From assembly GCA_037893245.1 (NCBI GenBank), contig JBAIAA010000606.1:372001-436000 (forward strand): a DNA stretch of 64,000 nt, given 5' to 3'. The notes under the pieces are model-generated. The model saw nothing but the letters and a program-made list of their open reading frames with translations, was not told where the DNA came from and made no database searches. Positions 15,289-64,000 of the stretch are shown one piece after another. Made by a program: the position numbers and the translations under genes. Source of the DNA: Crossaster papposus. Its lineage: Eukaryota; Echinodermata; Asteroidea; Velatida; Solasteridae. Every line of letters starts with the position of its first letter. The stretch's first letter is position 1.

Positions 15289-15316
15289 TGCGAAACTCAA
15301 GGTTGTCCGAGAATGA
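15201..15316. repeat. Fold-back junction 2 (reverse to forward)
   Basis: Reverse sequence ATTGCCGC ends at 15288 and forward sequence GCTGCGAAACTC starts at 15287, overlapping by GC at 15287-15288. The forward side lacks the part of the monomer before GCTGCGAAACTC. Locally, GTTTCGCAGC at 15201-15210 faces its reverse complement at 15287-15296 across a loop of about 76 bp. The long-range symmetry of A with B is about a point near 15900, so this junction sits at the inner end of arm A, beside the spacer. Confidence 0.88.
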
Positions 15317-16065
15317 AGAGACACTCACCAGCTCGACATCGGAGCCAAAATATTGCCAAATTTCTCACTGGAACAAAACCAAACCATGAGACTCATGCGT
15401 CAGGCCACTGGCGGCATAGGCCTATGCGGCAATACACGTGTACAAACATACACATCAGAAAAGGTGGCTGCGAATGAGGATAATTTTCTCGACTTATATC
15501 TGAGCTGCGAACCTCAACGTTGTTCGAGAATGAAGAGACACTCACCAGCTCGACATCGGAGCCAAAATATTGCCGAATTTTTCAATAGAAAGAACCCAAA
15601 CTGTGAGACTCATGCGTCAGGGCACTGGCGACCTAGGCCAATGCGGCAATACACGTGTACATATATACACATAAGAAAACATGGCTGCGAATGAGGATAA
15701 TTTTCTCGACTTATATTTGAGCTGCGAAACTCAACGTTGTCCGAGAATGAAGAGACACTCACCAGCTCGACATCTGAGCCAAAATATTGCCAAATTTCTC
15801 ACTGGAAAGAACCCAAACCATGAGACTCATGCGTCAGGCCACTGGCGGCATAGGCCTATGTGGCAATACACGTGTACAAACATACACATCAGAAAAGGTG
15901 GCTGCGAATGAGGATAATTTTCTCGACTTATATTTGAGCTGCGAACCTCAACGTTGTTCGAGAATGAAGAGACACTCACCAGCTCGACATCGGAGCCAAA
16001 ATATTGCCAAATTTCTCAATAGAAAGAACCCAAACTGTGAGACTCATGCGTCAGGGCACTGGCGA

Positions 16066-16093
16066 CATAGGCCTATGCGGCAATACACGTGTA
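16066..16093 (+). other. Paired short palindromes in the monomer: CATAGGCCTATG and TACACGTGTA
   Basis: CATAGGCCTATG at 16066-16077 is a perfect 12-bp palindrome. After six bases (CGGCAA), TACACGTGTA at 16084-16093 is a perfect 10-bp palindrome holding CACGTG. The pair recurs in most monomers of both types. A large subset has CATAGGCCAATG, which removes the first palindrome only. Binding or hairpin function is inference; no protein is identified. Confidence 0.7.
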
Positions 16094-16331
16094 CATAGAT
16101 ACACATAAGAAAACATTGCTGCGAATGAGGATAATGTTCTCAACTTATATTTGAGCTGCGAACCTCAACGTTGTTCGAGAATGAAGAGACACTCACCAGC
16201 TCGACATCGGAGCCAAAATATTGCCAAATTTCTCAATAGAAAGAACCCAAACTGTGAGACTCATGCGTCAGGGCACTGGCGACATAGGCCTATGCGGCAA
16301 TACACGTATACATAGATACACATAAGAAAAC

Positions 16332-16548
16332 ATGGCTGCGAATGAGGATAATGTTCTCGACTTATATTTGAGCTGCGAACCTCAACGTTGTTCGAGAATG
16401 AAGAGACACTCACCAGCTCGACATCTGAGCCAAAATATTGCCAAATTTCTCAATAGAAAGAACCCAAACTGTGAGACTCATGCGTCAGGGCACTGGCGAC
16501 CTAGGCCAATGCGGCAATACACGTGTACATAGATACACATAAAAAAAC
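16332..16548 (+). repeat. Example type 1 monomer (217 bp)
   Basis: This is one complete monomer in the phase chosen here, starting ATGGCTGCGAATGAGGATAA. Type 1 copies carry CTCAATAGAAAGAACCC in the middle and end ACATAGATACACATAAGAAAAC or close variants. This copy holds CAACGTTG at 16383-16390. Its second dyad site is in the altered form CCTAGGCCAATG, which breaks CATAGGCCTATG. Confidence 0.9.
16383..16390 (+). other. CAACGTTG palindrome of the monomer
   Basis: A perfect 8-bp palindrome within CCTCAACGTTGTTCGAG is found in most monomers. It is lost in copies reading CCTCATCGTTG (a type 2-associated substitution, e.g. about 27520) and in the 12-bp deletion variant. Conservation may simply reflect homogenisation of the array. 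Confidence 0.6.
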
Positions 16549-16765
16549 ATGGCTGCGAATGAGGATAATTTTCTCGACTTATATCTGAGCTGCGAAACTC
16601 AACGTTGTCCGAGAATGAAAAGACACTCACCAACTCGACATCTGAGCCAAAATATTGCCAAATTTCTCACTGGAAAAAACCCAAAGCATGAGACTCATGC
16701 GTCAGGCCACTGGCGGCATAGGCCTATGCGGCAATACACGTGTACAAACATACACATCAGAAAAG
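16549..16765 (+). repeat. Example type 2 monomer (217 bp)
   Basis: Type 2 copies carry CTCACTGGAAAAAACCC in the middle and end ACAAACATACACATCAGAAAAGGT, so the next monomer begins GTGGCTGCG instead of ATGGCTGCG. Middle and end types are not always coupled: type 2 middles occur with type 1 ends, as at about 22500-22630. This suggests exchange inside monomers. Confidence 0.85.
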
Positions 16766-17940
16766 GTGGCTGCGAATGAGGATAATTTTCTCGACTTATA
16801 TTTGAGCTGCGAACCTCAACGTTGTTCGAGAATGAAGAGACACTCACCAGCTCGACATCTGAGCCAAAATATTGCCAACTTTCTCAATGGAAAGGACCCA
16901 AACTGTGAGACTCATGCGTCAGGGCACTGGCGACATAGGCCAATGCGGCAATACACGTGTACATAGATACACATAAGAAAACATGGCTGCGAATGAGGAT
17001 AATTTTCTAGACTTTTATCTGAGCTGCGAACCTCAACGTTGTTCAAGAATGAAGAGACACTCACCAGCTCGACATCTGAGCCAAAATATTGCCAAATTTC
17101 TCAATAGAAAGAACCCAAACTGTGAGACTCATGCGTCAGGGCACTGGCGACCTAGGCCAATGCGGCAATACACGTGTACATAGATACACATAAATAAACA
17201 TGGCTGCGAATGAGGATAATTTTCTCGACTTATATCTGAGCTGCGAAACTCAACGTTGTCCGAGAATGAAAAGACACTCACCAACTCGACATCTGAGCCA
17301 AAATATTGCCAAATTTCTCACTGGAAAAAACCCAAACCATGAGACTCATGCGTCAGGCCACTGGCGGCATAGGCCTATGCGGCAATACACGTGTACAAAC
17401 ATACACATCAGAAAAGGTGGCTGCGAATGAGGATAATTTTCTCGACTTATATTTGAGCTGCGAACCTCAACGTTGTTCGAGAATGAAGAGACACTCACCA
17501 GCTCGACATCTGAGCCAAAATATTGCCAACTTTCTCAATGGAAAGGACCCAAACTGTGAGACTCATGCGTCAGGGCACTGGCGACATAGGCCAATGCGGC
17601 AATACACGTGTACATAGATACACATAAGAAAACATGGCTGCGAATGAGGATAATTTTCTAGACTTTTATCTGAGCTGCGAACCTCAACGTTGTTCAAGAA
17701 TGAAGAGACACTCACCAGCTCGACATCTGAGCCAAAATATTGCCAAAGTTCTCACTGGAAAAAACCCAAACCGTGAGACCCATGTGTCAGGGCACTGACG
17801 GCATAGGCCTATGCGGCAATACAAGTGTACAAACATACACATCAGAAAAGGTGGCTGCGAATGAGGATAATTTTCTGGACTTTTATTTGAGCTGCGAACG
17901 TCAACGTTGTCCGAGAATGAAGAGACACTCACCAGCTCGA

Positions 17941-17965
17941 CATCTGAGCCAATAATTTTCTCGAC
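17941..17965 (+). repeat. 133-bp deletion monomer, block B copy
   Basis: GAGCCA is joined directly to ATAATTTTCTCGAC. It is the mirror of the copies at about 13847 and about 63393. The upstream neighbour carries the rare GTCAACGTTGTCCGAG in all three arms. Confidence 0.85.
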
Positions 17966-32490: not shown

Positions 32491-35400
32491 ATGGCTGCGA
32501 ATGAGGATAATTTTCTCGACTTATATTTGAGCTGCGAACCTCAACGTTGTTCGAGAATGAAGAGACACTCACCAGCTCGACATCTGATCCAAAATATTGC
32601 CAACTTTCTCAATGGAAAGGACCCAAACTGTGAGACTCATGCGTCAGGGCACTGGCGACATAGGCCAATGCGGCAAAACACGTGTACATAGATACACATA
32701 AGAAAACATGGCTGCGAATGACGATAATTTTCTAGACTTATATCTGAGCTGCGAACCTCAACGTTGTTCGAGAATGAAGAGACACTCACCAGCTCGACAT
32801 CGGAGCCAAAATATTGCCAAATTTCTCAATAGAAAGAACCCAAACTGTGAGACTCATGCGTCAGGGCACTGGCGACATAGGCCTATGCGGAAATACACGT
32901 GTACATAGATACACATAAGAAAACATGGCTGCGAATGAGGATAATGTTCTCGACTTATATTTGAGCTGCGAACCTCAACGTTGTTCGAGAATGAAGAGAC
33001 ACTCACCAGCTCGACATCGGAGCCAAAATATTGCCAAATTTCTCAATAGAAAGAACCCAAACTGTGAGACTCATGCGTCAGGGCACTGGCGACATAGGCC
33101 AATGTGGCAATATAAGTGTACAAACATACACATCAGAAAAGGTGGCTGCGAATGAGGATAATTTTCTCGACTTATATTTGAGCTGCGAACCTCAACGTTG
33201 TTCGAGAATGAAGAGACACTCACCAGCTCGACATCTGAGCCGAAATATTGCCAAATTTTTCAATGGAAAGAACCCAAACTGTGAGACTCATGAGTCAGGG
33301 TACTGGCGACATAGGCCAGTGCGGCAATACACGTGTACATAGATACACATAAGAAAACATTGCTGCGAATGAGGATTATTTTCTCGACTTATATCTGAGC
33401 TGCGAAACTCAACTTTGTTCGAGAATGAAGAGACACTCACCAGCTCGACATCTGAGCCAAAATATTTCCAAATTTCTCACTGGAAAAAACCCAAACCATG
33501 AGACACATGCGTCAGGCCACTGGCGGCATAGGCCTATGCGGCAATACACGTGTACAAAAATACACATCAGAAAAGGTGGCTGCGAATGAGGATAATTTTC
33601 TCGACTTATATTTGAGCTGCGAAACTCAACGTTGTTCGAGAATGAATAGACACTCACCAGCTCGACATCGGAGCCAAAATATTGCCAAATTTCTCAATAG
33701 AAAGAACCCAAACTGTGAGGCTCATGTGTCAGGGCACTGGCGACATAGGCCTATGCGGCAATACACGTGTACATAGATACACATAAGAAAACATTGCTGC
33801 GAATGAGGATAATGTTCTCGACTTATATTTGAGCTGCGAAACTCAACGTTGTTCGAGAATGAATAGACACTCACCAGCTCGACATCGGAGCCAAAATATT
33901 GCCAAATTTCTCAATAGAAAGAACCCAAACTGTGAGACTCATGCGTCAGGGCATTGGCTACATAGGCCAATGCGGCAATACACGTGTACATAGATACACA
34001 TAAGACTCATGCGTCAGGGCACTGGCTACATAGGCCAATGCGGCAATACACGTGTACATAGATACACATAAGAAAACATGGCTGCGAATGAGGATAATTT
34101 TCTCGACTTATATTTGAGCTGCGAACCTCAACGTTGTTCGAGAATGAAGAGACACTCACCAGCTCGACATCTGATCCAAAATATTGCCAACTTTCTCAAT
34201 GGAAAGGACCCAAACTGTGAGACTCATGCGTCAGGGCACTGGCGACATAGGCCAATGCGGCAAAACACGTGTACATAGATACACATAAGAAAACATGGCT
34301 GCGAATGACGATAATTTTCTAGACTTATATCTGAGCTGCGAACCTCAACGTTGTTCGAGAATGAAGAGACACTCACCAGCTCGACATCTGAGCCAAAATA
34401 TTGCCAAACTTCTCACTGGAAAAAACCCAAACCGTGAGACTCATGCATCAGGCCACTGGCGGCATAGGCCTATGCGGCAATACACGTGTACAAACATACA
34501 CATCAGAAAAGGTGGCTGCGAATGAGGATAATTTTCTCGACTTTTATTTGAGCTGCGAACCTCATCGTTGTTCGAGAATGAAGAGACACTCACCAGCTCG
34601 ACATCGGAGCCAAAATATTGCCAAATTTCTCAATAGAAAGAACCCAAACTGTGAGACTCATGCGTCAGGGCATTGGCTACATAGGCCAATGCGGCAATAC
34701 ACGTGTACATAGATACACATAAGACTCATGCGTCAGGGCACTGGCTACATAGGCCAATGCGGCAATACACGTGTACATAGATACACATAAGAAAACATGG
34801 CTGCGAATGAGGATAATTTTCTCGACTTATATTTGAGCTGCGAACCTCAACGTTGTTCGAGAATGAAGAGACACTCACCAGCTCGACATCTGATCCAAAA
34901 TATTGCCAACTTTCTCAATGGAAAGGACCCAAACTGTGAGACTCATGCGTCAGGGCACTGGCGACATAGGCCAATGCGGCAAAACACGTGTACATAGATA
35001 CACATAAGAAAACATGGCTGCGAATGACGATAATTTTCTAGACTTATATCTGAGCTGCGAACCTCAACGTTGTTCGAGAATGAAGAGACACTCACCAGCT
35101 CGACATCTGAGCCAAAATATTGCAAAACTTCTCACTGGAAAAAACCCAAACCGTGAGACTCATGCATCAGGCCACTGGCGGCATAGGCCTATGCGGCAAT
35201 ACACGTGTACAAACATACACATCAGAAAAGGTGGCTGCGAATGAGGATAATTTTCTCGACTTTTATTTGAGCTGCGAACCTCATCGTTGTTCGAGAATGA
35301 AGAGACACTCACCAGCTCGACATCGGAGCCAAAATATTGCCAAATTTCTCAATAGAAAGAACCCAAACTGTGAGACTCATGCGTCAGGGCACTGGCGACA

Positions 35401-39528: not shown

Positions 39529-39574
39529 TCCCTACTACTACATATTCTCGAGTACACATTGGCCTATTCTCGAG
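39529..39574. other. Palindrome apex: 46-bp non-satellite insert at the B/C turn
   Basis: Forward satellite ends with CGGAAATA at 39528 and reverse satellite resumes with TGCCACATTGG at 39575. The 46 bases between begin TCCCTACTACTACAT, which I see nowhere else in the window. They then give TATTCTCGAGT twice, at 39543-39553 and 39565-39575, 22 bp apart. Each copy is followed shortly by ACATTGGCCTAT, a satellite motif, so part of the insert looks templated from flanking repeat. The centre of arm symmetry (sum 79100, point 39550) falls inside the insert, next to CTCGAG at 39547-39552. Filler DNA from end joining or template switching fits; this is inference. Confidence 0.85.
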
Positions 39575-42500
39575 TGCCACATTGGCCTATGTCGCCAGTG
39601 CCCTGACGCATGAGTCTCACAGTTTGGGTCCTTTCCATTGAGAAAATTGGCAATATTTTGGCTCCGATGTCGAGCTGGTGAGTGTCTCTTCATTCTCGAA
39701 CAACGTTGAGGTTCGCAGCTCAAATATAAGTCGAGAACATTATCCTCATTCGCAGCCATGTTTTCTTATGTGTATCTATGTACACGTGTATTTCCGCAAA
39801 GGCCTATGTCGCCAGTGCCCTGACGCATGAGTCTCACAGTTTGGGTTCTTTCTATTGAGAAATTTGGCAATATTTTGGCTCCGATGTCGAGCTGGTGAGT
39901 GTCTCTTCATTCTCGAACAACGATGAGGTTCGCAGCTCAAATAAAAGTCGAGAAAATTATCCTCATTCGCAGCCACCTTTTCTGATGTGTATGTTTGTAC
40001 ACGTGTATTGCCGCATAGGCCTATGCCGCCAGTGGCCTGATGCATGAGTCTCACGGTTTGGGTTTTTTCCAGTGAGAAGTTTTGCAATATTTTGGCTCAG
40101 ATGTCGAGCTGGTGAGTGTCTCTTCATTCTCGAACAACGTTGAGGTTCGCAGCTCAGATATAAGTCTAGAAAATTATCGTCATTCGCAGCCATGTTTTCT
40201 TATGTGTATCTATGTACACGTGTTTTGCCGCATTGGCCTATGTCGCCAGTGCCCTGACGCATGAGTCTCACAGTTTGGGTCCTTTCCATTGAGAAAGTTG
40301 GCAATATTTTGGATCAGATGTCGAGCTGGTGAGTGTCTCTTCATTCTCGAACAACGTTGAGGTTCGCAGCTCAAATATAAGTCGAGAAAATTATCCTCAT
40401 TCGCAGCCATGTTTTCTTATGTGTATCTATGTACACGTGTATTGCCGCATTGGCCTATGTAGCCAGTGCCCTGACGCATGAGTCTTATGTGTATCTATGT
40501 ACACGTGTATTGCCGCATTGGCCTATGTAGCCAATGCCCTGACGCATGAGTCTCACAGTTTGGGTTCTTTCTATTGAGAAATTTGGCAATATTTTGGCTC
40601 CGATGTCGAGCTGGTGAGTGTCTCTTCATTCTCGAACAACGATGAGGTTCGCAGCTCAAATAAAAGTCGAGAAAATTATCCTCATTCGCAGCCACCTTTT
40701 CTGATGTGTATGTTTGTACACGTGTATTGCCGCATAGGCCTATGCCGCCAGTGGCCTGATGCATGAGTCTCACGGTTTGGGTTTTTTCCAGTGAGAAGTT
40801 TGGCAATATTTTGGCTCAGATGTCGAGCTGGTGAGTGTCTCTTCATTCTCGAACAACGTTGAGGTTCGCAGCTCAGATATAAGTCTAGAAAATTATCGTC
40901 ATTCGCAGCCATGTTTTCTTATGTGTATCTATGTACACGTGTTTTGCCGCATTGGCCTATGTCGCCAGTGCCCTGACGCATGAGTCTCACAGTTTGGGTC
41001 CTTTCCATTGAGAAAGTTGGCAATATTTTGGATCAGATGTCGAGCTGGTGAGTGTCTCTTCATTCTCGAACAACGTTGAGGTTCGCAGCTCAAATATAAG
41101 TCGAGAAAATTATCCTCATTCGCAGCCATGTTTTCTTATGTGTATCTATGTACACGTGTATTGCCGCATTGGCCTATGTAGCCAGTGCCCTGACGCATGA
41201 GTCTTATGTGTATCTATGTACACGTGTATTGCCGCATTGGCCTATGTAGCCAATGCCCTGACGCATGAGTCTCACAGTTTGGGTTCTTTCTATTGAGAAA
41301 TTTGGCAATATTTTGGCTCCGATGTCGAGCTGGTGAGTGTCTATTCATTCTCGAACAACGTTGAGTTTCGCAGCTCAAATATAAGTCGAGAACATTATCC
41401 TCATTCGCAGCAATGTTTTCTTATGTGTATCTATGTACACGTGTATTGCCGCATAGGCCTATGTCGCCAGTGCCCTGACACATGAGCCTCACAGTTTGGG
41501 TTCTTTCTATTGAGAAATTTGGCAATATTTTGGCTCCGATGTCGAGCTGGTGAGTGTCTATTCATTCTCGAACAACGTTGAGTTTCGCAGCTCAAATATA
41601 AGTCGAGAAAATTATCCTCATTCGCAGCCACCTTTTCTGATGTGTATTTTTGTACACGTGTATTGCCGCATAGGCCTATGCCGCCAGTGGCCTGACGCAT
41701 GTGTCTCATGGTTTGGGTTTTTTCCAGTGAGAAATTTGGAAATATTTTGGCTCAGATGTCGAGCTGGTGAGTGTCTCTTCATTCTCGAACAAAGTTGAGT
41801 TTCGCAGCTCAGATATAAGTCGAGAAAATAATCCTCATTCGCAGCAATGTTTTCTTATGTGTATCTATGTACACGTGTATTGCCGCACTGGCCTATGTCG
41901 CCAGTACCCTGACTCATGAGTCTCACAGTTTGGGTTCTTTCCATTGAAAAATTTGGCAATATTTCGGCTCAGATGTCGAGCTGGTGAGTGTCTCTTCATT
42001 CTCGAACAACGTTGAGGTTCGCAGCTCAAATATAAGTCGAGAAAATTATCCTCATTCGCAGCCACCTTTTCTGATGTGTATGTTTGTACACTTATATTGC
42101 CACATTGGCCTATGTCGCCAGTGCCCTGACGCATGAGTCTCACAGTTTGGGTTCTTTCTATTGAGAAATTTGGCAATATTTTGGCTCCGATGTCGAGCTG
42201 GTGAGTGTCTCTTCATTCTCGAACAACGATGAGGTTCGCAGCTCAAATAAAAGTCGAGAAAATTATCCTCATTCGCAGCCACCTTTTCTGATGTGTATGT
42301 TTGTACACGTGTATTGCCGCATAGGCCTATGCCGCCAGTGGCCTGATGCATGAGTCTCACGGTTTGGGTTTTTTCCAGTGAGAAGTTTTGCAATATTTTG
42401 GCTCAGATGTCGAGCTGGTGAGTGTCTCTTCATTCTCGAACAACGTTGAGGTTCGCAGCTCAGATATAAGTCTAGAAAATTATCGTCATTCGCAGCCATG

Positions 42501-45500
42501 TTTTCTTATGTGTATCTATGTACACGTGTTTTGCCGCATTGGCCTATGTCGCCAGTGCCCTGACGCATGAGTCTCACAGTTTGGGTCCTTTCCATTGAGA
42601 AAGTTGGCAATATTTTGGATCAGATGTCGAGCTGGTGAGTGTCTCTTCATTCTCGAACAACGTTGAGGTTCGCAGCTCAAATATAAGTCGAGAAAATTAT
42701 CCTCATTCGCAGCCATGTTTTCTTATGTGTATCTATGTACACGTGTATTGCCGCATTGGCCTATGTAGCCAGTGCCCTGACGCATGAGTCTTATGTGTAT
42801 CTATGTACACGTGTATTGCCGCATTGGCCTATGTAGCCAATGCCCTGACGCATGAGTCTCACAGTTTGGGTTCTTTCTATTGAGAAATTTGGCAATATTT
42901 TGGCTCCGATGTCGAGCTGGTGAGTGTCTCTTCATTCTCGAACAACGATGAGGTTCGCAGCTCAAATAAAAGTCGAGAAAATTATCCTCATTCGCAGCCA
43001 CCTTTTCTGATGTGTATGTTTGTACACGTGTATTGCCGCATAGGCCTATGCCGCCAGTGGCCTGATGCATGAGTCTCACGGTTTGGGTTTTTTCCAGTGA
43101 GAAGTTTGGCAATATTTTGGCTCAGATGTCGAGCTGGTGAGTGTCTCTTCATTCTCGAACAACGTTGAGGTTCGCAGCTCAGATATAAGTCTAGAAAATT
43201 ATCGTCATTCGCAGCCATGTTTTCTTATGTGTATCTATGTACACGTGTTTTGCCGCATTGGCCTATGTCGCCAGTGCCCTGACGCATGAGTCTCACAGTT
43301 TGGGTCCTTTCCATTGAGAAAGTTGGCAATATTTTGGATCAGATGTCGAGCTGGTGAGTGTCTCTTCATTCTCGAACAACGTTGAGGTTCGCAGCTCAAA
43401 TATAAGTCGAGAAAATTATCCTCATTCGCAGCCATGTTTTCTTATGTGTATCTATGTACACGTGTATTGCCGCATTGGCCTATGTAGCCAGTGCCCTGAC
43501 GCATGAGTCTTATGTGTATCTATGTACACGTGTATTGCCGCATTGGCCTATGTAGCCAATGCCCTGACGCATGAGTCTCACAGTTTGGGTTCTTTCTATT
43601 GAGAAATTTGGCAATATTTTGGCTCCGATGTCGAGCTGGTGAGTGTCTATTCATTCTCGAACAACGTTGAGTTTCGCAGCTCAAATATAAGTCGAGAACA
43701 TTATCCTCATTCGCAGCAATGTTTTCTTATGTGTATCTATGTACACGTGTATTGCCGCATAGGCCTATGTCGCCAGTGCCCTGACACATGAGCCTCACAG
43801 TTTGGGTTCTTTCTATTGAGAAATTTGGCAATATTTTGGCTCCGATGTCGAGCTGGTGAGTGTCTCTTCATTCTCGAACAACGTTGAGGTTCGCAGCTCA
43901 AATATAAGTCGAGAACATTATCCTCATTCGCAGCCATGTTTTCTTATGTGTATCTATGTACACGTGTATTTCCGCATAGGCCTATGTCGCCAGTGCCCTG
44001 ACGCATGAGTCTCACAGTTTGGGTTCTTTCTATTGAGAAATTTGGCAATATTTTGGCTCCGATGTCGAGCTGGTGAGTGTCTCTTCATTCTCGAACAACG
44101 TTGAGGTTCGCAGCTCAGATATAAGTCTAGAAAATTATCGTCATTCGCAGCCATGTTTTCTTATGTGTATCTATGTACACGTGTTTTGCCGCATTGGCCT
44201 ATGTCGCCAGTGCCCTGACGCATGAGTCTCACAGTTTGGGTCCTTTCCATTGAGAAAGTTGGCAATATTTTGGATCAGATGTCGAGCTGGTGAGTGTCTC
44301 TTCATTCTCGAACAACGTTGAGGTTCGCAGCTCAAATATAAGTCGAGAAAATTATCCTCATTCGCAGCCATGTTTTCTTATGTGTATCTATGTACACGTG
44401 TATTGCCGCATTGGCCTATGTAGCCAGTGCCCTGACGCATGAGTCTTATGTGTATCTATGTACACGTGTATTGCCGCATTGGCCTATGTAGCCAATGCCC
44501 TGACGCATGAGTCTCACAGTTTGGGTTCTTTCTATTGAGAAATTTGGCAATATTTTGGCTCCGATGTCGAGCTGGTGAGTGTCTCTTCATTCTCGAACAA
44601 CGATGAGGTTCGCAGCTCAAATAAAAGTCGAGAAAATTATCCTCATTCGCAGCCACCTTTTCTGATGTGTATGTTTGTACACGTGTATTGCCGCATAGGC
44701 CTATGCCGCCAGTGGCCTGATGCATGAGTCTCACGGTTTGGGTTTTTTCCAGTGAGAAGTTTGGCAATATTTTGGCTCAGATGTCGAGCTGGTGAGTGTC
44801 TCTTCATTCTCGAACAACGTTGAGGTTCGCAGCTCAGATATAAGTCTAGAAAATTATCGTCATTCGCAGCCATGTTTTCTTATGTGTATCTATGTACACG
44901 TGTTTTGCCGCATTGGCCTATGTCGCCAGTGCCCTGACGCATGAGTCTCACAGTTTGGGTCCTTTCCATTGAGAAAGTTGGCAATATTTTGGATCAGATG
45001 TCGAGCTGGTGAGTGTCTCTTCATTCTCGAACAACGTTGAGGTTCGCAGCTCAAATATAAGTCGAGAAAATTATCCTCATTCGCAGCCATGTTTTCTTAT
45101 GTGTATCTATGTACACGTGTATTGCCGCATTGGCCTATGTAGCCAGTGCCCTGACGCATGAGTCTTATGTGTATCTATGTACACGTGTATTGCCGCATTG
45201 GCCTATGTAGCCAATGCCCTGACGCATGAGTCTCACAGTTTGGGTTCTTTCCATTTCGAAATTTGGCAATAATTTGGCTCAGATGTCGAGATGGTGAGTG
45301 TTTCTTCATTCTCGAACAACGTTGAGGTTCGCAGCTAAGATATAAGTCGAAATAATTATCCTCATTCGCCGCCACCTTTTCTTATGTGTATGTTTGTACA
45401 CGTGTATTGCCGCATAGGCCTATGCCGCCAGTGGCCTGACGCATGAGTCTCACGGTTTGGGTTTTTTCCAGTGAGAAGTTTGGCAATATTTTGGCTCAGA

Positions 45501-46342
45501 TGTCGAGCTGGTGAGTGTCTCTTCATTCTCGGTTCGCAGCTCAAATATAAGTCGAGAAAATTATCCTCATTCGCAGCCACCTTTTCTGATGTGTATGTTT
45601 GTACACTTATATTGCCACATTGGCCTATGTCGCCAGTGCCCTGACGCATGAGTCTCACAGTTTGGGTCCTTTCCATTGAGAAAATTGGCAATATTTTGGC
45701 TCCGATGTCGAGCTGGTGAGTGTCTCTTCATTCTCGAACAACGTTGAGGTTCGCAGCTCAAATATAAGTCGAGAACATTATCCTCATTCGCAGCCATGTT
45801 TTCTTATGTGTATCTATGTACACGTGTATTTCCGCAAAGGCCTATGTCGCCAGTGCCCTGACGCATGAGTCTCACAGTTTGGGTTCTTTCTATTGAGAAA
45901 TTTGGCAATATTTTGGCTCCGATGTCGAGCTGGTGAGTGTCTCTTCATTCTCGAACAACGTTGAGGTTCGCAGCTCAAATATAAGTCGAGAACATTATCC
46001 TCATTCGCAGCCATGTTTTCTTATGTGTATCTATGTACACGTGTATTTCCGCATAGGCCTATGTCGCCAGTGCCCTGACGCATGAGTCTCACAGTTTGGG
46101 TTCTTTCTATTGAGAAATTTGGCAATATTTTGGCTCCGATGTCGAGCTGGTGAGTGTCTCTTCATTCTCGAACAACGATGAGGTTCGCAGCTCAAATAAA
46201 AGTCGAGAAAATTATCCTCATTCGCAGCCACCTTTTCTGATGTGTATGTTTGTACACGTGTATTGCCGCATAGGCCTATGCCGCCAGTGGCCTGATGCAT
46301 GAGTCTCACGGTTTGGGTTTTTTCCAGTGAGAAGTTTTGCAA
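39575..46342 (-). repeat. Block C segment 1, mirror of about 30520-39525
   Basis: Compared with B, this segment lacks one 1587-bp higher-order unit (sum 79100 to 77513 at about 42716) and 651 bp, i.e. three monomers (77513 to 76862 at about 43945). The monomer nearest the apex differs in type from its partner in B (AAAATTGGCAATATT and TCCTTTCCATTGAG here, against a CTCAATAGAAAG form in B). The innermost base pairing is therefore between non-equivalent monomers; one monomer seems to have been removed next to the turn. Confidence 0.82.
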
Positions 46343-47073
46343 TATTTTGGCTCAGATGTCGAGCTGGTGAGTGTCTCTTCATTCTCGGTTCGCAGCTCAA
46401 ATATAAGTCGAGAAAATTATCCTCATTCGCAGCCACCTTTTCTGATGTGTATGTTTGTACACTTATATTGCCACATTGGCCTATGTCGCCAGTGCCCTGA
46501 CGCATGAGTCTCACAGTTTGGGTCCTTTCCATTGAGAAAATTGGCAATATTTTGGCTCCGATGTCGAGCTGGTGAGTGTCTCTTCATTCTCGAACAACGT
46601 TGAGGTTCGCAGCTCAAATATAAGTCGAGAACATTATCCTCATTCGCAGCCATGTTTTCTTATGTGTATCTATGTACACGTGTATTTCCGCAAAGGCCTA
46701 TGTCGCCAGTGCCCTGACGCATGAGTCTCACAGTTTGGGTTCTTTCTATTGAGAAATTTGGCAATATTTTGGCTCCGATGTCGAGCTGGTGAGTGTCTCT
46801 TCATTCTCGAACAACGTTGAGGTTCGCAGCTCAAATATAAGTCGAGAACATTATCCTCATTCGCAGCCATGTTTTCTTATGTGTATCTATGTACACGTGT
46901 ATTTCCGCATAGGCCTATGTCGCCAGTGCCCTGACGCATGAGTCTCACAGTTTGGGTTCTTTCTATTGAGAAATTTGGCAATATTTTGGCTCCGATGTCG
47001 AGCTGGTGAGTGTCTCTTCATTCTCGAACAACGATGAGGTTCGCAGCTCAAATAAAAGTCGAGAAAATTATCC
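45362..47073 (-). repeat. 856-bp tandem duplication in block C (two copies)
   Basis: The series at 45362-46217 is repeated at 46218-47073. Landmarks at 45567, 45814 and 46031 recur at 46423, 46670 and 46887, all at a spacing of 856. The unit is three 217-bp monomers plus one 205-bp monomer. Block B has one copy at the mirror position. The exact edges can slide within the repeat. Confidence 0.83.
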
Positions 47074-48324
47074 TCATTCGCAGCCACCTTTTCTGATGTG
47101 TATGTTTGTACACGTGTATTGCCGCATAGGCCTATGCCGCCAGTGGCCTGATGCATGAGTCTCACGGTTTGGGTTTTTTCCAGTGAGAAGTTTTGCAATA
47201 TTTTGGCTCAGATGTCGAGCTGGTGAGTGTCTCTTCATTCTCGAACAACGTTGAGGTTCGCAGCTCAGATATAAGTCTAGAAAATTATCGTCATTCGCAG
47301 CCATGTTTTCTTATGTGTATCTATGTACACGTGTTTTGCCGCATTGGCCTATGTCGCCAGTGCCCTGACGCATGAGTCTCACAGTTTGGGTCCTTTCCAT
47401 TGAGAAAGTTGGCAATATTTTGGATCAGATGTCGAGCTGGTGAGTGTCTCTTCATTCTCGAACAACGTTGAGGTTCGCAGCTCAAATATAAGTCGAGAAA
47501 ATTATCCTCATTCGCAGCCATGTTTTCTTATGTGTATCTATGTACACGTGTATTGCCGCATTGGCCTATGTAGCCAGTGCCCTGACGCATGAGTCTTATG
47601 TGTATCTATGTACACGTGTATTGCCGCATTGGCCTATGTAGCCAATGCCCTGACGCATGAGTCTCACAGTTTGGGTTCTTTCTATTGAGAAATTTGGCAA
47701 TATTTTGGCTCCGATGTCGAGCTGGTGAGTGTCTCTTCATTCTCGAACAACGATGAGGTTCGCAGCTCAAATAAAAGTCGAGAAAATTATCCTCATTCGC
47801 AGCCACCTTTTCTGATGTGTATGTTTGTACACGTGTATTGCCGCATAGGCCTATGCCGCCAGTGGCCTGATGCATGAGTCTCACGGTTTGGGTTTTTTCC
47901 AGTGAGAAGTTTGGCAATATTTTGGCTCAGATGTCGAGCTGGTGAGTGTCTCTTCATTCTCGAACAACGTTGAGGTTCGCAGCTCAGATATAAGTCTAGA
48001 AAATTATCGTCATTCGCAGCCATGTTTTCTTATGTGTATCTATGTACACGTGTTTTGCCGCATTGGCCTATGTCGCCAGTGCCCTGACGCATGAGTCTCA
48101 CAGTTTGGGTCCTTTCCATTGAGAAAGTTGGCAATATTTTGGATCAGATGTCGAGCTGGTGAGTGTCTCTTCATTCTCGAACAACGTTGAGGTTCGCAGC
48201 TCAAATATAAGTCGAGAAAATTATCCTCATTCGCAGCCATGTTTTCTTATGTGTATCTATGTACACGTGTATTGCCGCATTGGCCTATGTAGCCAGTGCC
48301 CTGACGCATGAGTCTTATGTGTAT

Positions 48325-51300
48325 CTATGTACACGTGTATTGCCGCATTGGCCTATGTAGCCAATGCCCTGACGCATGAGTCTCACAGTTTGGGTTCTTT
48401 CCATTTCGAAATTTGGCAATAATTTGGCTCAGATGTCGAGATGGTGAGTGTCTCTTCATTCTCGAACAACGTTGAGGTTCGCAGCTAAGATATAAGTCGA
48501 AATAATTATCCTCATTCGCCGCCACCTTTTCTTATGTGTATGTTTGTACACGTGTATTGCCGCATAGGCCTATGCCGCCAGTGGCCTGACGCATGAGTCT
48601 CACGGTTTGGGTTTTTTCCAGTGAGAAGTTTGGCAATATTTTGGCTCAGATGTCGAGCTGGTGAGTGTCTCTTCATTCTCGGTTCGCAGCTCAAATATAA
48701 GTCGAGAAAATTATCCTCATTCGCAGCCATGTTTTCTGATGTGTATGTTTGTACATTGTATTGTCGCATAGGCCTATGCCGTCAGTGCCCTGACACATGG
48801 GTCTCACGGTTTGGGTTTTTTTCCAGTGAGAAGTTTGGCAATATTTTGGCTCAGATGTCGAGCTGGTGAGTGTCTCTTCATTCTCGAACAACATTGAGGT
48901 TCGCAGCTCAAATATAAGTCGAGAACATTATCCTCATTCGCAGCCATGTTTTCTTATGTGTATCTATGTACACGTGTATTGCCACATAGGCCTATGTCGC
49001 CAGTGCCCTGACGCATGAGTCTCACAGTTTGGGTCCTTTCCATTGAGAAAGTTGGCAATATTTTGGATCAGATGTCGAGCTGGTGAGTGTCTCTTCATTC
49101 TCGAACAACGTTGAGGTTCGCAGCTCAAATATAAGTCGAGAAAATTATCCTCATTCGCAGCCATGTTTTCTTATGTGTATCTATGTACACGTGTATTGCC
49201 GCATTGGCCTATGTAGCCAGTGCCCTGACGCATGAGTCTTATGTGTATCTATGTACACGTGTATTGCCGCATTGGCCTATGTAGCCAATGCCCTGACGCA
49301 TGAGTCTCACAGTTTGGGTTCTTTCCATTTCGAAATTTGGCAATAATTTGGCTCAGATGTCGAGATGGTGAGTGTCTCTTCATTCTCGAACAACGTTGAG
49401 GTTCGCAGCTAAGATATAAGTCGAAATAATTATCCTCATTCGCCGCCACCTTTTCTTATGTGTATGTTTGTACACGTGTATTGCCGCATAGGCCTATGCC
49501 GCCAGTGGCCTGACGCATGAGTCTCACGGTTTGGGTTTTTTCCAGTGAGAAGTTTGGCAATATTTTGGCTCAGATGTCGAGCTGGTGAGTGTCTCTTCAT
49601 TCTCGGTTCGCAGCTCAAATATAAGTCGAGAAAATTATCCTCATTCGCAGCCACCTTTTCTGATGTGTATGTTTGTACACTTATATTGCCACATTGGCCT
49701 ATGTCGCCAGTGCCCTGACGCATGAGTCTCACAGTTTGGGTCCTTTCCATTGAGAAAATTGGCAATATTTTGGCTCCGATGTCGAGCTGGTGAGTGTCTC
49801 TTCATTCTCGAACAACGTTGAGGTTCGCAGCTCAAATATAAGTCGAGAACATTATCCTCATTCGCAGCCATGTTTTCTTATGTGTATCTATGTACACGTG
49901 TATTTCCGCAAAGGCCTATGTCGCCAGTGCCCTGACGCATGAGTCTCACAGTTTGGGTTCTTTCTATTGAGAAATTTGGCAATATTTTGGCTCCGATGTC
50001 GAGCTGGTGAGTGTCTCTTCATTCTCGAACAACGTTGAGGTTCGCAGCTCAAATATAAGTCGAGAACATTATCCTCATTCGCAGCCATGTTTTCTTATGT
50101 GTATCTATGTACACGTGTATTTCCGCATAGGCCTATGTCGCCAGTGCCCTGACGCATGAGTCTCACAGTTTGGGTTCTTTCTATTGAGAAATTTGGCAAT
50201 ATTTTGGCTCCGATGTCGAGCTGGTGAGTGTCTCTTCATTCTCGAACAACGATGAGGTTCGCAGCTCAAATAAAAGTCGAGAAAATTATCCTCATTCGCA
50301 GCCACCTTTTCTGATGTGTATGTTTGTACACGTGTATTGCCGCATAGGCCTATGCCGCCAGTGGCCTGATGCATGAGTCTCACGGTTTGGGTTTTTTCCA
50401 GTGAGAAGTTTTGCAATATTTTGGCTCAGATGTCGAGCTGGTGAGTGTCTCTTCATTCTCGAACAACGTTGAGGTTCGCAGCTCAGATATAAGTCTAGAA
50501 AATTATCGTCATTCGCAGCCATGTTTTCTTATGTGTATCTATGTACACGTGTTTTGCCGCATTGGCCTATGTCGCCAGTGCCCTGACGCATGAGTCTCAC
50601 AGTTTGGGTCCTTTCCATTGAGAAAGTTGGCAATATTTTGGATCAGATGTCGAGCTGGTGAGTGTCTCTTCATTCTCGAACAACGTTGAGGTTCGCAGCT
50701 CAAATATAAGTCGAGAAAATTATCCTCATTCGCAGCCATGTTTTCTTATGTGTATCTATGTACACGTGTATTGCCGCATTGGCCTATGTAGCCAGTGCCC
50801 TGACGCATGAGTCTTATGTGTATCTATGTACACGTGTATTGCCGCATTGGCCTATGTAGCCAATGCCCTGACGCATGAGTCTCACAGTTTGGGTTCTTTC
50901 CATTTCGAAATTTGGCAATAATTTGGCTCAGATGTCGAGATGGTGAGTGTCTCTTCATTCTCGAACAACGTTGAGGTTCGCAGCTAAGATATAAGTCGAA
51001 ATAATTATCCTCATTCGCCGCCACCTTTTCTTATGTGTATGTTTGTACACGTGTATTGCCGCATAGGCCTATGCCGCCAGTGGCCTGACGCATGAGTCTC
51101 ACGGTTTGGGTTTTTTCCAGTGAGAAGTTTGGCAATATTTTGGCTCAGATGTCGAGCTGGTGAGTGTCTCTTCATTCTCGGTTCGCAGCTCAAATATAAG
51201 TCGAGAAAATTATCCTCATTCGCAGCCATGTTTTCTGATGTGTATGTTTGTACATTGTATTGTCGCATAGGCCTATGCCGTCAGTGCCCTGACACATGGG

Positions 51301-52590
51301 TCTCACGGTTTGGGTTTTTTTCCAGTGAGAAGTTTGGCAATATTTTGGCTCAGATGTCGAGCTGGTGAGTGTCTCTTCATTCTCGAACAACATTGAGGTT
51401 CGCAGCTCAAATATAAGTCGAGAACATTATCCTCATTCGCAGCCATGTTTTCTTATGTGTATCTATGTACACGTGTATTGCCACATAGGCCTATGTCGCC
51501 AGTGCCCTGACGCATGAGTCTCACAGTTTGGGTCCTTTCCATTGAGAAAGTTGGCAATATTTTGGATCAGATGTCGAGCTGGTGAGTGTCTCTTCATTCT
51601 CGAACAACGTTGAGGTTCGCAGCTCAAATATAAGTCGAGAAAATTATCCTCATTCGCAGCCATGTTTTCTTATGTGTATCTATGTACACGTGTATTGCCG
51701 CATTGGCCTATGTAGCCAGTGCCCTGACGCATGAGTCTTATGTGTATCTATGTTCACGTGTATTGCCGCATTGGCCTATGTAGCCAATGCCCTGACGCAT
51801 GAGTCTCACAGTTTGGGTTCTTTCCATTTCGAAATTTGGCAATAATTTGGCTCAGATGTCGAGATGGTGAGTGTCTCTTCATTCTCGAACAACGTTGAGG
51901 TTCGCAGCTAAGATATAAGTCGAAATAATTATCCTCATTCGCCGCCACCTTTTCTTATGTGTATGTTTGTACACGTGTATTGCCGCATAGGCCTATGCCG
52001 CCAGTGGCCTGACGCATGAGTCTCACGGTTTGGGTTTTTTCCAGTGAGAAGTTTGGCAATATTTTGGCTCAGATGTCGAGCTGGTGAGTGTCTCTTCATT
52101 CTCGGTTCGCAGCTCAAATATAAGTCGAGAAAATTATCCTCATTCGCAGCCACCTTTTCTGATGTGTATGTTTGTACACTTATATTGTCACATTGGCCTA
52201 TGTCGCCAGTGCCCTGACGCATGAGTCTCACAGTTTGGGTTTTTTCCAGTGAGAAGTTTGGCAATATTTTGGCTCAGATGTCGAGCTGGTGAGTGTCTCT
52301 TCATTCTCGGTTCGCAGCTCAAATATAAGTCGAGAAAATTATCCTCATTCGCAGCCATGTTTTCTGATGTGTATGTTTGTACATTGTATTGTCGCATAGG
52401 CCTATGCCGTCAGTGCCCTGACACATGGGTCTCACGGTTTGGGTTTTTTTCCAGTGAGAAGTTTGGCAATATTTTGGCTCAGATGTCGAGCTGGTGAGTG
52501 TCTCTTCATTCTCGAACAACATTGAGGTTCGCAGCTCAAATATAAGTCGAGAACATTATCCTCATTCGCAGCCATGTTTTCTTATGTGTA
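48325..52590 (-). repeat. Local amplification in block C: 2499-bp tandem repeat plus an 1129-bp partial copy
   Basis: Landmarks at 48325, 48512, 48621, 48964 and 49436 recur at 50824, 51011, 51120, 51463 and 51935 (spacing 2499). Those at 51120, 51190 and 51463 recur at 52249, 52319 and 52592 (spacing 1129). Together these give the 3628 bp by which C exceeds B here (sum 77501 to 81129). A wider 3218-bp relation (47074 to 50292, i.e. 2499+719) ties the unit to sequence just left of it. Confidence 0.83.
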
Positions 52591-52591
52591 T

Positions 52592-58500: not shown

Positions 58501-59590
58501 TGTTTTCTTATGTGTATCTATGTACACGTGTATTGCCGCATAGGCCTATGTCGCCAGTGCCCTGACGCATGAGTTTCACGGTTTGGGTTTTTTCCAGTGA
58601 GAAGTTTGGCAATATTTTGGCTCAGATGTCGAGCTGGTGAGTGTCTCTTCATTCTCGAACAACGTTGAGGTTCGCAGCTCAAATATAAGTCGAGAAAATT
58701 ATCCTCATTCGCACCCACCTTTTCTGATGTGTATGTTTGTACACTTGTATTGCCGCGTAGGCCTATGCCGTCAGTGCCCTGACGCAAGAGTCTCACAGTT
58801 TGGGTTCTTTCTATTGAGAAATTTGGCAATATTTTGGCTCCGATGTCGAGCTGGTGAGTGTCTCTTCATTCTCGAACAACGTTGAGGTTCGCAGCTCAAA
58901 TATAAGTCGAGAACATTATCCTCATTCGCAGCCATGTTTTCTTATGTGTATCTATGTACACGTGTATTGCCGCATAGGCCTATGTCGCCAGTGCCCTGAC
59001 GCATGAGTTTCACGGTTTGGGTTTTTTCCGGTGGGAAGTTTGGCAATATTTTGGCTCAGATGTCGAGCTGGTGAGTGTCTCTTCATTCTCGAACAACGTT
59101 GAGGTTCGCAGCTCAAATATAAGTCGAGAAAATTATCCTCATTCGCACCCACCTTTTCTGATGTGTATGTTTGTACACTTGTATTGCCGCATAGGCCTAT
59201 GCCGTCAGTGCCCTGACACATAGGTCTCACGGTTTGGGTTTTTTCCAGTGAGAAGTTTGGCAATATTTTGGCTCAGATGTCGAGCTGGTGAGTGTCTCTT
59301 CATTCTCGAACAACGTTGAGGTTCGCAGCTCAGATATAAGTCTAGAAAATTATCCTCATTCGCAGCCATGTTTTCTTATGTGTATCTATGTACACGTGTA
59401 TTGCCGCATTGGCCTAGGTCGCCAGTGCCCTGACGCATGAGTCTCACAGTTTGGGTTCGTTTTATTGAGAAATTTGGCAATATTTTGGCTCCGATGTCGA
59501 GCTGGTGAGTGTCTCTTCATTCTCGAACAACGTTGAGGTTCGCAGCTCAAATATAAGTCGAGAACATTATCCTCATTCGCAGCTATGTTT
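52592..59590 (-). repeat. Block C segment 3, mirror of B 21540-28537 and direct repeat of A about 4130-10040
   Basis: About 6.7 kb is collinear with B without net length change. Relative to A it has the four monomers that A lost near 6250 and the one A lost near 8900. Shared rare variants include CAGTTGTATTGCC at about 55705 and 57224 (A: 6375 and 7893) and GGTTTAGGTTTT at about 57496 (A about 8166). Confidence 0.85.
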
Positions 59591-62500
59591 TCTTATGTGT
59601 ATCTATGTACACGTGTATTGCCGCATAGGCCTATGTCGCCAGTGCCCTGACGCATGAGTCTCACAGTTTGGGTTCCTTATATTGAGAAATTTGGCAATAT
59701 TTTGGCTCCGATGTCGAGCTGGTGAGTGTCTCTTCATTCTCGAACAACATTGAGGTTCGCAGCTCAAATATAAGTCGAGAACATTAACCTCATTCGCAGC
59801 CATGTTTTCTTATGTGTATCTATGTACACGTGTATTGCCGCATAGGCCTATGTCGCCAGTGCCCTGACGCATGAGTCTCACAGTTTGGGTCCTTTCCATT
59901 GAGAAAGTTGGCAATATTTTGGCTCCGATGTCGAGCTGGTGAGTGTCTCTACATTCTCGAACAACGTTGAGGTTCGCAGCTCAGATATAAGTCTAGAAAA
60001 TTATCCTCATTCGCAGCCATGTTTTCTTATGTGTATGTTTGTACACGTGTATTGCCGCATTGGCCTATGTCGCCAGTGCCCAGTCGCATGAGTCTCACGG
60101 TTTGGTTTTTTTACAGTGAGAAATTTGGCAATATTTTGGCTCCGATGTCGAGCTGCTGAGTGTCTCTTCATTCTCGAACAACGTTGAGGTTCGCAGCTCA
60201 AATATAAGTCGAGAAAATTATCCTCATTCGCAGCCATGTTTTCTTATGTGTATCTATGTACACGTGTATTGCCGCATTGGCCTATGTAGCCAGTGCCCTG
60301 ACGCATGAGTCTTATGTGTATCTATGTACACGTGTATTGCCGCATTGGCCTATGTAGCCAGTGCCCTGACGCATGAGTCTCACAGTTTGGGTTCTTTCCA
60401 TTTCGAAATTTGGCAATAATTTGGCTCAGATGTCGAGATGGTGAGTGTCTCTTCATTCTCGAACAACGTTGAGGTTCGCAGCTAAGATATAAGTCGAAAT
60501 AATTATCACCATTCGCCGCCACCTTTTCTTATGTGTATGTTTGTACACGTGTATTGCCGCATAGGCCTATGCCGCCAGTGGCCTGACGCATGAGTCTCAC
60601 GGTTTGGTTTTTTTCCAGTGAGAAATTTGGCAATATTTTGGCTCAGATGTCGAGCTGGTGAGTGTCTCTTCATTCTCGAACAACGTTGAGGTTCGCAGCT
60701 CAAATATAAGTCGAGAAAATTATCCTCATTCGCAGCCACCTTTTCTGATGTGTATGTTTGTACACTTGTATTGCCGCATAGGCCTATGCCGTCAGTGCCC
60801 TGACACATGGGTCTCACGGTTTGGGTTTTTTCCAGTGGGAAATTTGGCAATATTTTGGCTGAGATGTCCAGCTGGTGAGTGTCTCTTCATTCTCGAACAA
60901 CGTTGAGGTTCGCAGCTCAAATATAAGTCGAGAAAATTATCCTCATTCGCAGCCATGTTTTTTTATGTGTATCTATGTACACATGTATTGCCGCACTGGC
61001 CTATGTCGCCAGTGCCCTGACTCATGAGTCTCACAGTTTGGGTTCTTTCCTTTGAGGAATTTGGCAATATTTTGGCTCAGATGTCGAGCTGGAGAGTGTC
61101 TCTTCATTCTCGAACAACGTTGAGGTTCGCAGCTCAGATACAAGTCGAAAAAATTATCCTCATTCGCAGCCATGTTTTCTTATGTGTATCTATGTACACG
61201 TGTATTGCCGCATAGGCATATGTCGCCAGTGCCCTGATACATGAGTCTCACAGTTTGGGTTCTTTCTATTGAGAAATTTGGCAATATTTTGACTCAGATG
61301 TCGAGCTGGTGAGTGTCTCTACATTCTCGAACAACGTTGAGGTTCGCAGCTCAGATATAAGTCTAGAAAATTATCCTCATTCGCAGCCATGTTTTCTTAT
61401 GTGTATGTTTGTACACGTGTATTGCCGCATTGGCCTATGTCGCCAGTGCCCAGACGCATGAGTCTCACGGTTTGGTTTTTTTCCAGTGAGAAATTTGGCA
61501 ATATTTTGGCTCAGATGTTGAGCTGGTGAGTGTCTCTTCATTTTCAAACAACGTTGAGGTTTGCAGCTAAGATATAAGTCGAGAAAATTATCCTCATTCG
61601 CAGCCACCTTTTCTGATGTGTATCTATGTACACGTGTATTGCCGCACTGGCCTATGTCGCCAATGCCCTGACTCATGAGTCTCACAGTTTGGGTTCTTTC
61701 CATTGAGAAATTTGGCAATATTTTGGCTCAGATGTCGAGCTGCTGAGTGTCTCTTCATTCTCGAACAACGTTGAGGTTCGCAGCTCAAATATAAGTCGAG
61801 AAAATTATCCTCATTCGCAGCCATGTTTTCTTATGTGTATCTATGTACACGTGTATTGCCGCATTGGCCTATGTAGCCAGTGCCCTGACGCATGAGTCTT
61901 ATGTGTATCTATGTACACGTGTATTGCCGCATTGGCCTATGTAGCCAGTGCCCTGACGCATGAGTCTCACAGTTTGGGTTCTTTCCATTTCGAAATTTGG
62001 CAATAATTTGGCTCAGATGTCGAGATGGTGAGTGTCTCTTCATTCTCGAACAACGTTGAGGTTCGCAGCTAAGATATAAGTCGAAATAATTATCATCATT
62101 CGCCGCCACCTTTTCTTATGTGTATGTTTGTACACGTGTATTGCCGCATAGGCCTATGCCGCCAGTGGCCTGACGCATGAGTCTCACGGTTTGGTTTTTT
62201 TCCAGTGAGAAGTTTGGCAATATTTTGGCTCAGATGTCGAGCTGGTGAGTGTCTCTTCATTCTCGAACAACGTTGAGGTTCGCAGCTCAAATATAAGTCG
62301 AGAAAATTATCCTCATTCGCAGCCACCTTTTCTGATGTGTATGTTTGTAAACGTGTATTGCCGCATAGGCCTATGCCGCCAGTGGCCTGACGCATGTGTC
62401 TCATGGTTTGGGTTTTTTCCAGTGAGAAATCTGGCAATATTTTGGCTCAGATGTCGAGCTGGTGAGTGTCTCTTCATTCTCGAACAAAGTTGAGTTTCGC

Positions 62501-64000
62501 AGCTCAGATATAAGTCGAGAAAATAATCCTCATTCGCAGCAATGTTTTCTTATGTGTATCTATGTACACGTGTATTGCCGCACTGGCCTATGTCGCCAGT
62601 GCCCTGACTCATGAGTCTCACAGTTTTGGTTCTTTCCATTGAGAAATTTGGCAATATTTTGGCTCAGATGTCGAGCTGGAGAGTGTCTCTTCATTCTCGA
62701 ACAACGTTGAGGTTCGCAGCTCAATAATAAGTCGAGAAAATTATCCTCATTCGCAGCCATGTTTTCTTATGTGTATCTATGTACACGTGTATTGCCGCAT
62801 AGGCCTATGTCGCCAGTGCCCTGACGCATGAGTCTCACGGTTTGGTTTTTTCCAGTGAGAAGTTTGGCAATATTTTGGCTCAGATGTCGAGCTGGTGAGT
62901 GTCTCTTCATTCTCGAACAACGTTGAGGTTCGCAGCTCAAATATAAGTCGAGAAAATTATCCTCATTCGCAGCCACCTTTTCTGATGTGTATGTTTGTAC
63001 ACTTGTATTGCCACATTGGCCTATGTCGCCAGTGCCCTGACGCATGAGTCTCACAGTTTGGGTCCTTTCCATTGAGAAAGTTGGCAATATTTTGGCTCCG
63101 ATGTCGAGCTGGTGAGTGTCTCTTCATTCTCCAACAACGTTGAGGTTCGCAGCTCAAATATAAGTCGAGAACATTATCCTCATTCGCAGCCATGTTTTCT
63201 TATGTGTATCTATGTACATGTGTATTGCCGCATAGGCCTATGTCGCCAGTGCCCTGACGCATGAGTCTCACAGCTTGGGTTCTTTCTATTGAGAAATTTG
63301 GCAATATTCTGGCTTCGATGTCGAGCTGGTGAGTGTCTCTTCATTCTCGAACAACGTTGAGGTTCGCAGCTCAAATATAAGTCGAGAAAATTATTGGCTC
63401 AGATGTCGAGCTGGTGAGTGTCTCTTCATTCTCGGACAACGTTGACGTTCGCAGCTCAAATAAAAGTCAAGAAAATTATCCTCATTCGCAGCCACCTTTT
63501 CTGATGTGTATGTTTGTACACTTGTATTGCCGCATAGGCCTATGCCGTCAGTGCCCTGACACATGGGTCTCACGGTTTGGGTTTTTTCCAGTGAGAACTT
63601 TGGCAATATTTTGGCTCAGATGTCGAGCTGGTGAGTGTCTCTTCATTCTTGAACAACGTTGAGGTTCGCAGCTCAGATAAAAGTCTAGAAAATTATCCTC
63701 ATTCGCAGCCATGTTTTCTTATGTGTATCTATGTACACGTGTATTGCCGCATTGGCCTATGTCGCCAGTGCCCTGACGCATGAGTCTCACAGTTTGGGTC
63801 CTTTCCATTGAGAAAGTTGGCAATATTTTGGCTCAGATGTCGAGCTGGTGAGTGTCTCTTCATTCTCGAACAACGTTGAGGTTCGCAGCTCAAATATAAG
63901 TCGAGAAAATTATCCTCATTCGCAGCCACCTTTTCTGATGTGTATGTTTGTACACGTGTATTGCCGCATAGGCCTATGCCGCCAGTGGCCTGACGCATGA
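59590..64000 (-). repeat. Block C segment 4, direct repeat of A about 10040-14453
   Basis: Offset to A is 49547 throughout. It includes the monomer ending ATTAACCTC that B lacks. Known single-base differences are 61326 (C in C, A at 11779 in A) and 63469 (A in C, C at 13922 in A). By eye this is a nearly identical 4.4-kb copy; I did not compute a percentage. Confidence 0.85.
63383..63407 (-). repeat. 133-bp deletion monomer, block C copy
   Basis: The same junction as at about 13847, at an offset of 49547. Nearby, A at 63469 (AGTCAAG) is private to this copy; A (13922) and B have AGTCCAG or its complement. Confidence 0.85.

Follow-up and report, generated by a model that had tools for sequence, protein, structure and literature searches.

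How does an array of tandemly repeated satellite DNA come to turn back on itself, and what does the turn record of the way in which such arrays grow? The question is raised by a contig of the sea star Crossaster papposus (JBAIAA010000606.1, hereafter C606; assembly GCA_037893245.1, 1,023,315,904 bases in 1,841 contigs), of which we analysed a 64-kb stretch, positions 372001–436000, referred to as the window. Except for 46 bp, the window consists of tandem 217-bp units with about 45% GC (guanine plus cytosine), which differ from one another by a median of 6.9%. An initial annotation had placed a lone palindrome here, with arms of about 24 kb (B and C) around that 46-bp loop. The assembled sequence does contain this palindrome, which extends further than had been claimed, but it is not lone: B is the middle arm of three, and a second fold-back-like junction, J2, separates it from a further copy, A. 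The locus is a + − + triplet of near-identical copies, A, B, and C, of which C is continuous with the right-hand array.

The triplet emerges from the order of the units, which were cut out and labelled by sequence cluster before their order was aligned. Within the window, reverse-complemented B and C share 90 unit pairs in identical order with a score of 73.4, compared with 2.3 for the best of 20 shuffles of the C units and 0.7 for C reversed, which bears out the earlier observation that the same ordered series of monomers runs outward from position 39550 in both directions. Arm C continues for 2.06 kb past the window end, to C606 438059 (window-equivalent 66059), for a total of 26.5 kb, and the outer 2.06 kb of B (15289–17345) is mirrored only there; with the flanks included, B and C share 99 unit pairs with 5 gap events and a mean unit divergence of 0.0006. 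Since A, in the + orientation, matches B when inverted (59 unit pairs, mean unit divergence 0.0009) and C directly (60 unit pairs, 0.0005), the three arms form a + − + series. The coordinate sums tell the same order in finer grain. The three sums given earlier, 79100, 81129, and 81346, are among the 40 strongest inverted sums in the window, and three more that lie between them had been missed, so that along B and C the sum changes from 79100 through 77513, 76862, and 77501 to 81129 and 81346, the changes corresponding to blocks of 7, 3, 3, 16, and 1 units. Length variants of 285, 205, 216, and 85 bp serve as further markers in the array.

The wider setting is one-directional. Joining 20 neighbouring stretches to the window gave 264 kb (C606 292–556 kb) with no N's (undetermined bases) and 1,222 units, and the satellite extends over at least this distance. 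All units are in the + orientation except for two reversed islands, A0 and B, which by their unit anchors run from C606 369,811 to 373,938 and from 387,309 to 411,403, respectively; four changes of orientation fall inside 42 kb. A0 is no near-identical mirror of A. It has a 606-bp exact inverted match in the left flank (368,732–369,337), and its best collinear matches are 1.6–1.9% divergent over 4–10 units.

Features of the triplet and its hinges, in window coordinates
Feature	Position	Strand	Basis
A0, right-hand portion of a reversed island roughly 4 kb long (C606 about 369.8–374.2 kb)	1–2166	-	orientation runs
Hinge J1 (A0/A), short hairpin with a 2-bp overlap judged by eye	2157–2180		sequence; local inverted register 284/300
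Arm A, 13.1 kb, inverted near-copy of part of B and direct near-copy of part of C	2167–15288	+	unit pairs, base walk
Hinge J2 (A/B), tail to tail, 2-bp overlap GC	15277–15302		arm-end comparison with C
Arm B, 24.24 kb, reversed island; C mirrors all of it, A part	15289–39528	-	unit alignment, base walk
Three-unit block (651 bp) in B, missing from C; approximate edges	33069–33719	-	unit alignment, base walk
Hinge J3 (B/C), 46-bp filler	39529–39574		satellite edges
Arm C inside the window, followed by the one-directional array beyond 66059	39575–64000	+	unit alignment, orientation runs
214 bp of C lying further out than the end of B, hinge units matched by sequence	39575–39788	+	hinge-end recurrence
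Three-unit block in C, missing from B; approximate edges	46356–46993	+	sum 76862 to 77501
16-unit block (about 3.63 kb) in C, missing from A and B; approximate edges	48606–52232	+	sum 77501 to 81129, shift 44834 to 48462

How alike are the arms, and in what order might they have arisen? Substitutions among them amount to 0.04–0.09%, in addition to gains or losses of 1 to 16 units. Walked base by base, A differs from C at 5 of 13,122 bases and from B at 12 of 13,122, five of the latter adjoining a unit missing from B. B and C differ at 52 of 24,240 bases, and 43 of these mismatches were excluded from the arm divergence because they are located in the three-unit block absent from C. The alignment of B with reverse-complemented C, proposed earlier as a way of listing their differences, thus leaves 9 substitutions and 5 gap events, unit indels being about half as many as point differences. 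The arms are inexact copies, with no perfect inverted match between them longer than 3,667 bp. Two other measures of divergence were set aside: seven substitutions between the hinge-side partial units, which turned out to be different units one step apart, and BLAST identities of 94–99%, which understate the likeness of the arms because many of the listed matches are out of register, a problem that the unit-order alignment removed.

Nine sites vary within the span common to A, B, and C. Four are private to B and three to A (one of which adjoins a unit lost from A), and at two A and B agree against C. At the first of these two, the letter of A and B occurs in 7 of the 1,217 lettered units of the 264 kb and that of C in 1,210, so that the A/B letter is most simply derived. 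At none of the nine does a rare letter unite C with either A or B. Variants that tell the arms apart lie at 22987, 25124, and 27948 in B and at 5191 and 11779 in A, and one that sets A and B against C lies at 3365, 29302, and 48199 in A, B, and C, respectively. Two arm-specific letters, at window positions 22987 and 17195, each occur in one unit only of the 1,222. Taken together, the sites lend thin support to a tree in which A and B would be closest relatives and C their outgroup, ((A,B),C).

Hinges J2 and J3 are asymmetric. At J3 the last satellite base of B is 39528 and the first of C is 39575, which confirms the loop coordinates given earlier. The hinge end of B matches C at C606 411789 (window 39789), and at three further places in C the sequences of the two hinge ends are found 214 bp from each other; C therefore begins 214 bp further out than B ends. 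The filler between them contains one 13-base satellite match, CACATTGGCCTAT, and three 8-base matches that may be due to chance, ATTCTCGA twice and GTACACAT; for roughly its first 14 bases, the only match in the window that reaches 8 bases straddles the edge. At 39543–39602 there is a 23-bp near-tandem repeat of 2.6 copies, which begins in the filler and continues into arm C. Patchwork end-joining scars resemble such a filler with a near-tandem repeat. At J2, A tracks C up to C606 436835, and B, inverted, starts from 438059, an asymmetry of 1,224 bp. A and B overlap there by 2 bp (GC), and at J3 any short inverted homology would be masked by the filler. Each hinge pattern has a single match in the assembly: the J3 loop (its first 36 bases, up to 3 mismatches), J2 (26 bases, up to 2 mismatches), and J1 (24 bases, up to 1 mismatch). 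A hairpin fold of the hinge, at z −15.6, merely restates the inverted repeat, and a comparison of the hinge stretch with phages gave no match.

What sequence of events could have produced these arms? The earlier proposal that a fold-back event copied more than 20 kb of satellite in inverted orientation, followed by gain and loss of units, fits the unit alignments, the hinges, and the base walks well. With modest confidence, we favour a version of it with two successive fold-back or template-switch copies, from C to B and from B to A, after which units were gained and lost. A strand ending at the present left end of C would have folded back at J3, and reverse copying of C from that point would have made B, with the 46-bp patchwork filler left where the strand turned. 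In a later event B may have folded back at J2 from its outer end onto a point about 1.2 kb further in, with approximately 2 bp as the primer, and a second reverse copying with B as the template would have made A in the original direction. Copy A would have ended early and been joined to the left-hand array via a further reversed scrap, A0, and units and unit blocks would afterwards have been gained or lost separately in each arm. The order of the arms, the asymmetric hinges, the overlap, the filler, the variants shared by A and B, and the continuity of C all fit two fold-back copies; from them we infer that replication was the copying process, that it proceeded from C to B to A, and that there were two events rather than one.

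Several observations weigh against this history. The grouping of A with B comes from two sites only, and at the second of them the A/B letter, the C letter, and the letter of the majority of units are three different ones. A 2-bp overlap is weak evidence of priming, given that 134 of 1,000 random spacers had at least 2 bp in a simulation reported for human junctions (PMC3907307). No single model yields the left side cleanly, given that A ends short and that A0 points to no clear source. Finally, the structure itself is that of the assembled sequence.

Precedents for fold-back copying come from junctions elsewhere. Human fold-back inverted duplications, as described from 13 sequenced junctions, have spacers of a few kilobases and 2–8 bp of inverted microhomology (Hermetz et al., 2014; PMC3907307). 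The sea star locus resembles those cases in pairing an inverted copy with a spacer (1,224 bp at J2; 214 bp plus the 46-bp filler at J3), and the 2 bp at J2 may correspond to their short inverted overlap. The cases described in that report adjoin terminal deletions, translocations, and ring junctions (PMC3907307), whereas the present one is interstitial, composed of satellite, and doubled.

Could a single, more complex event have made A, B, and C at once? Microhomology-mediated break-induced replication (MMBIR), or a leading/lagging strand switch akin to origin-dependent inverted-repeat amplification (ODIRA), would need at least two template switches to do so, and it would account for the + − + order, the junction of C with its normal right flank, and the patchwork filler at J3. 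Interstitial inverted triplications are indeed known from ODIRA in yeast, where + − + copies likewise alternate within a chromosome (PMC10766183). According to the same account, however, yeast hinges lie at inverted repeats of 2–14 bp with a preferred spacing of 40–80 bp, and the 3 of 92 junctions exceeding 1 kb are attributed to later deletion (PMC10766183); spacings of 1,224 bp, and of 214 bp plus filler, fall outside that range, and the left copy here is incomplete. The rare letter shared by A and B but not by C, moreover, suggests two steps. An ODIRA-type triplication is expected to have both flanks intact; at the sea star locus the right flank is continuous, but the left copy is cut at J1 and joined to A0. 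These points make a single event, the main rival, a tentative and rather doubtful explanation. A different objection is that the assembly may have joined allelic or sister copies of the array head to head, or incorporated chimeric or fold-back reads. Two haplotypes could also differ by 0.04–0.09% substitutions plus unit indels, and the four orientation changes within 42 kb likewise speak for this explanation. A fold-back read, however, would yield exact complements without whole-unit indels, and the arms instead show five unit-indel events plus arm-specific substitutions, including the two letters each confined to a single unit, which makes a simple hairpin-read artefact unlikely. A misjoin of haplotypes is possible, but it would have to explain three near-identical copies instead of two. 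Exact inverted matches reach 3.7 kb at most, so long reads of ordinary length should tell the arms apart; in addition, shuffled sequences match three sequencing adapters as well as the filler does, and no N's interrupt the 264 kb. The artefact that the initial annotation had offered as its alternative is thereby weakened to an explanation of low probability, though one that is still to be reckoned with.

Two further explanations would give the palindrome a longer life or a function. Near-identical inverted repeats on some sex chromosomes are held alike by arm-to-arm gene conversion, an analogy drawn earlier for this locus to which the high identity of the arms lends some appeal. Yet number differences of 1–16 units have not been levelled between the arms, all nine sites fit a simple tree, and at none of them does a rare letter ally C with A or with B; we give an old, conversion-maintained palindrome very little credence. 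The other comparison is with the beetle Tribolium madens, in which the satellites TmSat1 and TmSat2 account for about 38% of the genome and form palindromes as long as tens of kilobases, termed macro-dyad symmetries, with thousands of conserved inversion sites (PMC13081366). Might the sea star palindrome likewise be a functional symmetry, selected for the formation of large hairpins as has been proposed for Tribolium (peri)centromeres? Monomer orientation switches inside the array in both, a multi-kilobase palindrome results (B of 24.2 kb against C of 26.5 kb), and the scale of the inverted subarrays, from a few kilobases to 75 kb in the beetle, is alike (PMC13081366). Yet the inversion sites of T. 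madens number in the thousands and are nearly identical (PMC13081366), whereas the loop, J2, and J1 occur once each, in a satellite that by extrapolation makes up about 1.4% of an echinoderm genome, and few hinges were found in three partial pattern surveys. With every tested hinge in a single copy, the locus shares the shape of the Tribolium structures and lacks their conserved inversion sites, and a selected function of this kind appears highly improbable. The authors of that work regard macro-dyad symmetries as documented only in Tribolium (PMC13081366); in the one literature collection searched, the term appeared beyond Tribolium only in the reference list of a paper on Edessa bugs.

Changes of orientation within satellites have also been described in humans, where satellite-rich pericentromeric inversions are polymorphic, for example on chromosome 1 (PMC10150506). 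The orientation changes within satellite there as it does here, but the human cases are described in that source as inversions, not as near-identical inverted copies (PMC10150506), and human alpha-satellite arrays are reported to retain their orientation with few exceptions (PMC9859433). An inverted duplication inside a satellite array is of a kind already known; it is the unusual readability of its history that distinguishes the present one.

How exceptional is such a locus within its own array and genome? One 26-base piece of the unit has 824 exact copies within the 264 kb and, in the whole assembly, 25,051 forward and 19,452 reverse ones. Extrapolated from the local share of 824 in 1,222 units, and assuming that the share is equal throughout the genome, the satellite may comprise about 66,000 units, or about 14 Mb and 1.4% of the genome. 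An exact satellite pattern had no match in either viral contigs or genome contigs, and papers on 217-bp satellites, with Physcomitrella and Hedysarum as their subjects, and on sea urchin or echinoderm satellites, sought in one collection only, showed nothing recognisable as this repeat. Within C606, large direct segmental duplications lie in the same array at 299000–363300, 441500–475600, and 533700–550500, with shifts of approximately 3.7, 10.9, 20–22, 26.5, and 38.7 kb and with unit indels. Four direct duplications in the flanks, chosen by eye from the list of matches, have mean unit divergences of 0.0015–0.0064, above the values within the triplet; another direct duplication, at 535–543 kb, on the other hand, includes an exact match of 3,712 bp that exceeds every exact inverted match, and local direct copies within B and C are exact for up to 2,428 bp. 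The idea that the triplet is the youngest duplication of the locus was accordingly rejected, since direct copies equally young exist. Large recent copies, mostly direct, are common in the array, where the triplet is one young duplication among others.

Three surveys of junctions in the assembly found eight tail-to-tail places, six head-to-head places (two of which are J1), and another four head-to-head places, all of them lower bounds because the surveys required exact 14-mers on both sides and covered two spacing bands head to head and one tail to tail. From this partial survey, large reversed islands of the satellite may be uncommon. Head-to-head junctions on contig C646 lie at 450339, 911867–912337, 914455–914925, and 922721–923191; at three of the four a tail-to-tail partner is about 218 bp away, and these look like single reversed units that were apparently co-amplified. 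Further changes of orientation were seen on C146 (4570127, 4571641, 4617101, 4617567, and 5352134), C149 (1631728), and C174 (2028806). Unrelated to the satellite, contig C8, which is longer than 5.2 Mb, has COX1-family matches in long, stop-free open frames at 5208663–5210009 and 2872001–2873343, and it may be a bacterial symbiont or contaminant. Another COX1, on contig C1841, has 13 internal TGA codons; with AAA translated as Asn, as in genetic code tables 9 and 14, asparagine falls at conserved asparagine positions, where tables 4 and 5 put lysine. Its best PDB match scores 924 bits, and the bovine structure 1occ scores 916. Table 9 is used by echinoderms and flatworms, and the closeness to a mammalian protein suggests the former.

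Inferences about the turnover of satellite arrays usually draw on direct repeats. In the triplet each copy is marked by its orientation, and a single locus is enough to read both the order of duplication and the ratio of unit indels to point mutations (5 to 9 between B and C). Provided that the assembly is correct, a palindrome tens of kilobases long can exist in a satellite without a repeated, conserved inversion site, and the single-copy hinges bear on functional readings of satellite palindromes in other systems. A more speculative idea, which we consider a long shot, is that serial fold-back can enlarge the satellite arrays of this lineage, with every arm reverse-copied from the previous one. 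Were this true, the triplet would be a shortening ladder, from C (26 kb) through B (24 kb) to A (13 kb); reversed arms would normally be lost later, leaving arrays that appear one-directional, and the window would have captured such a ladder before its clean-up.

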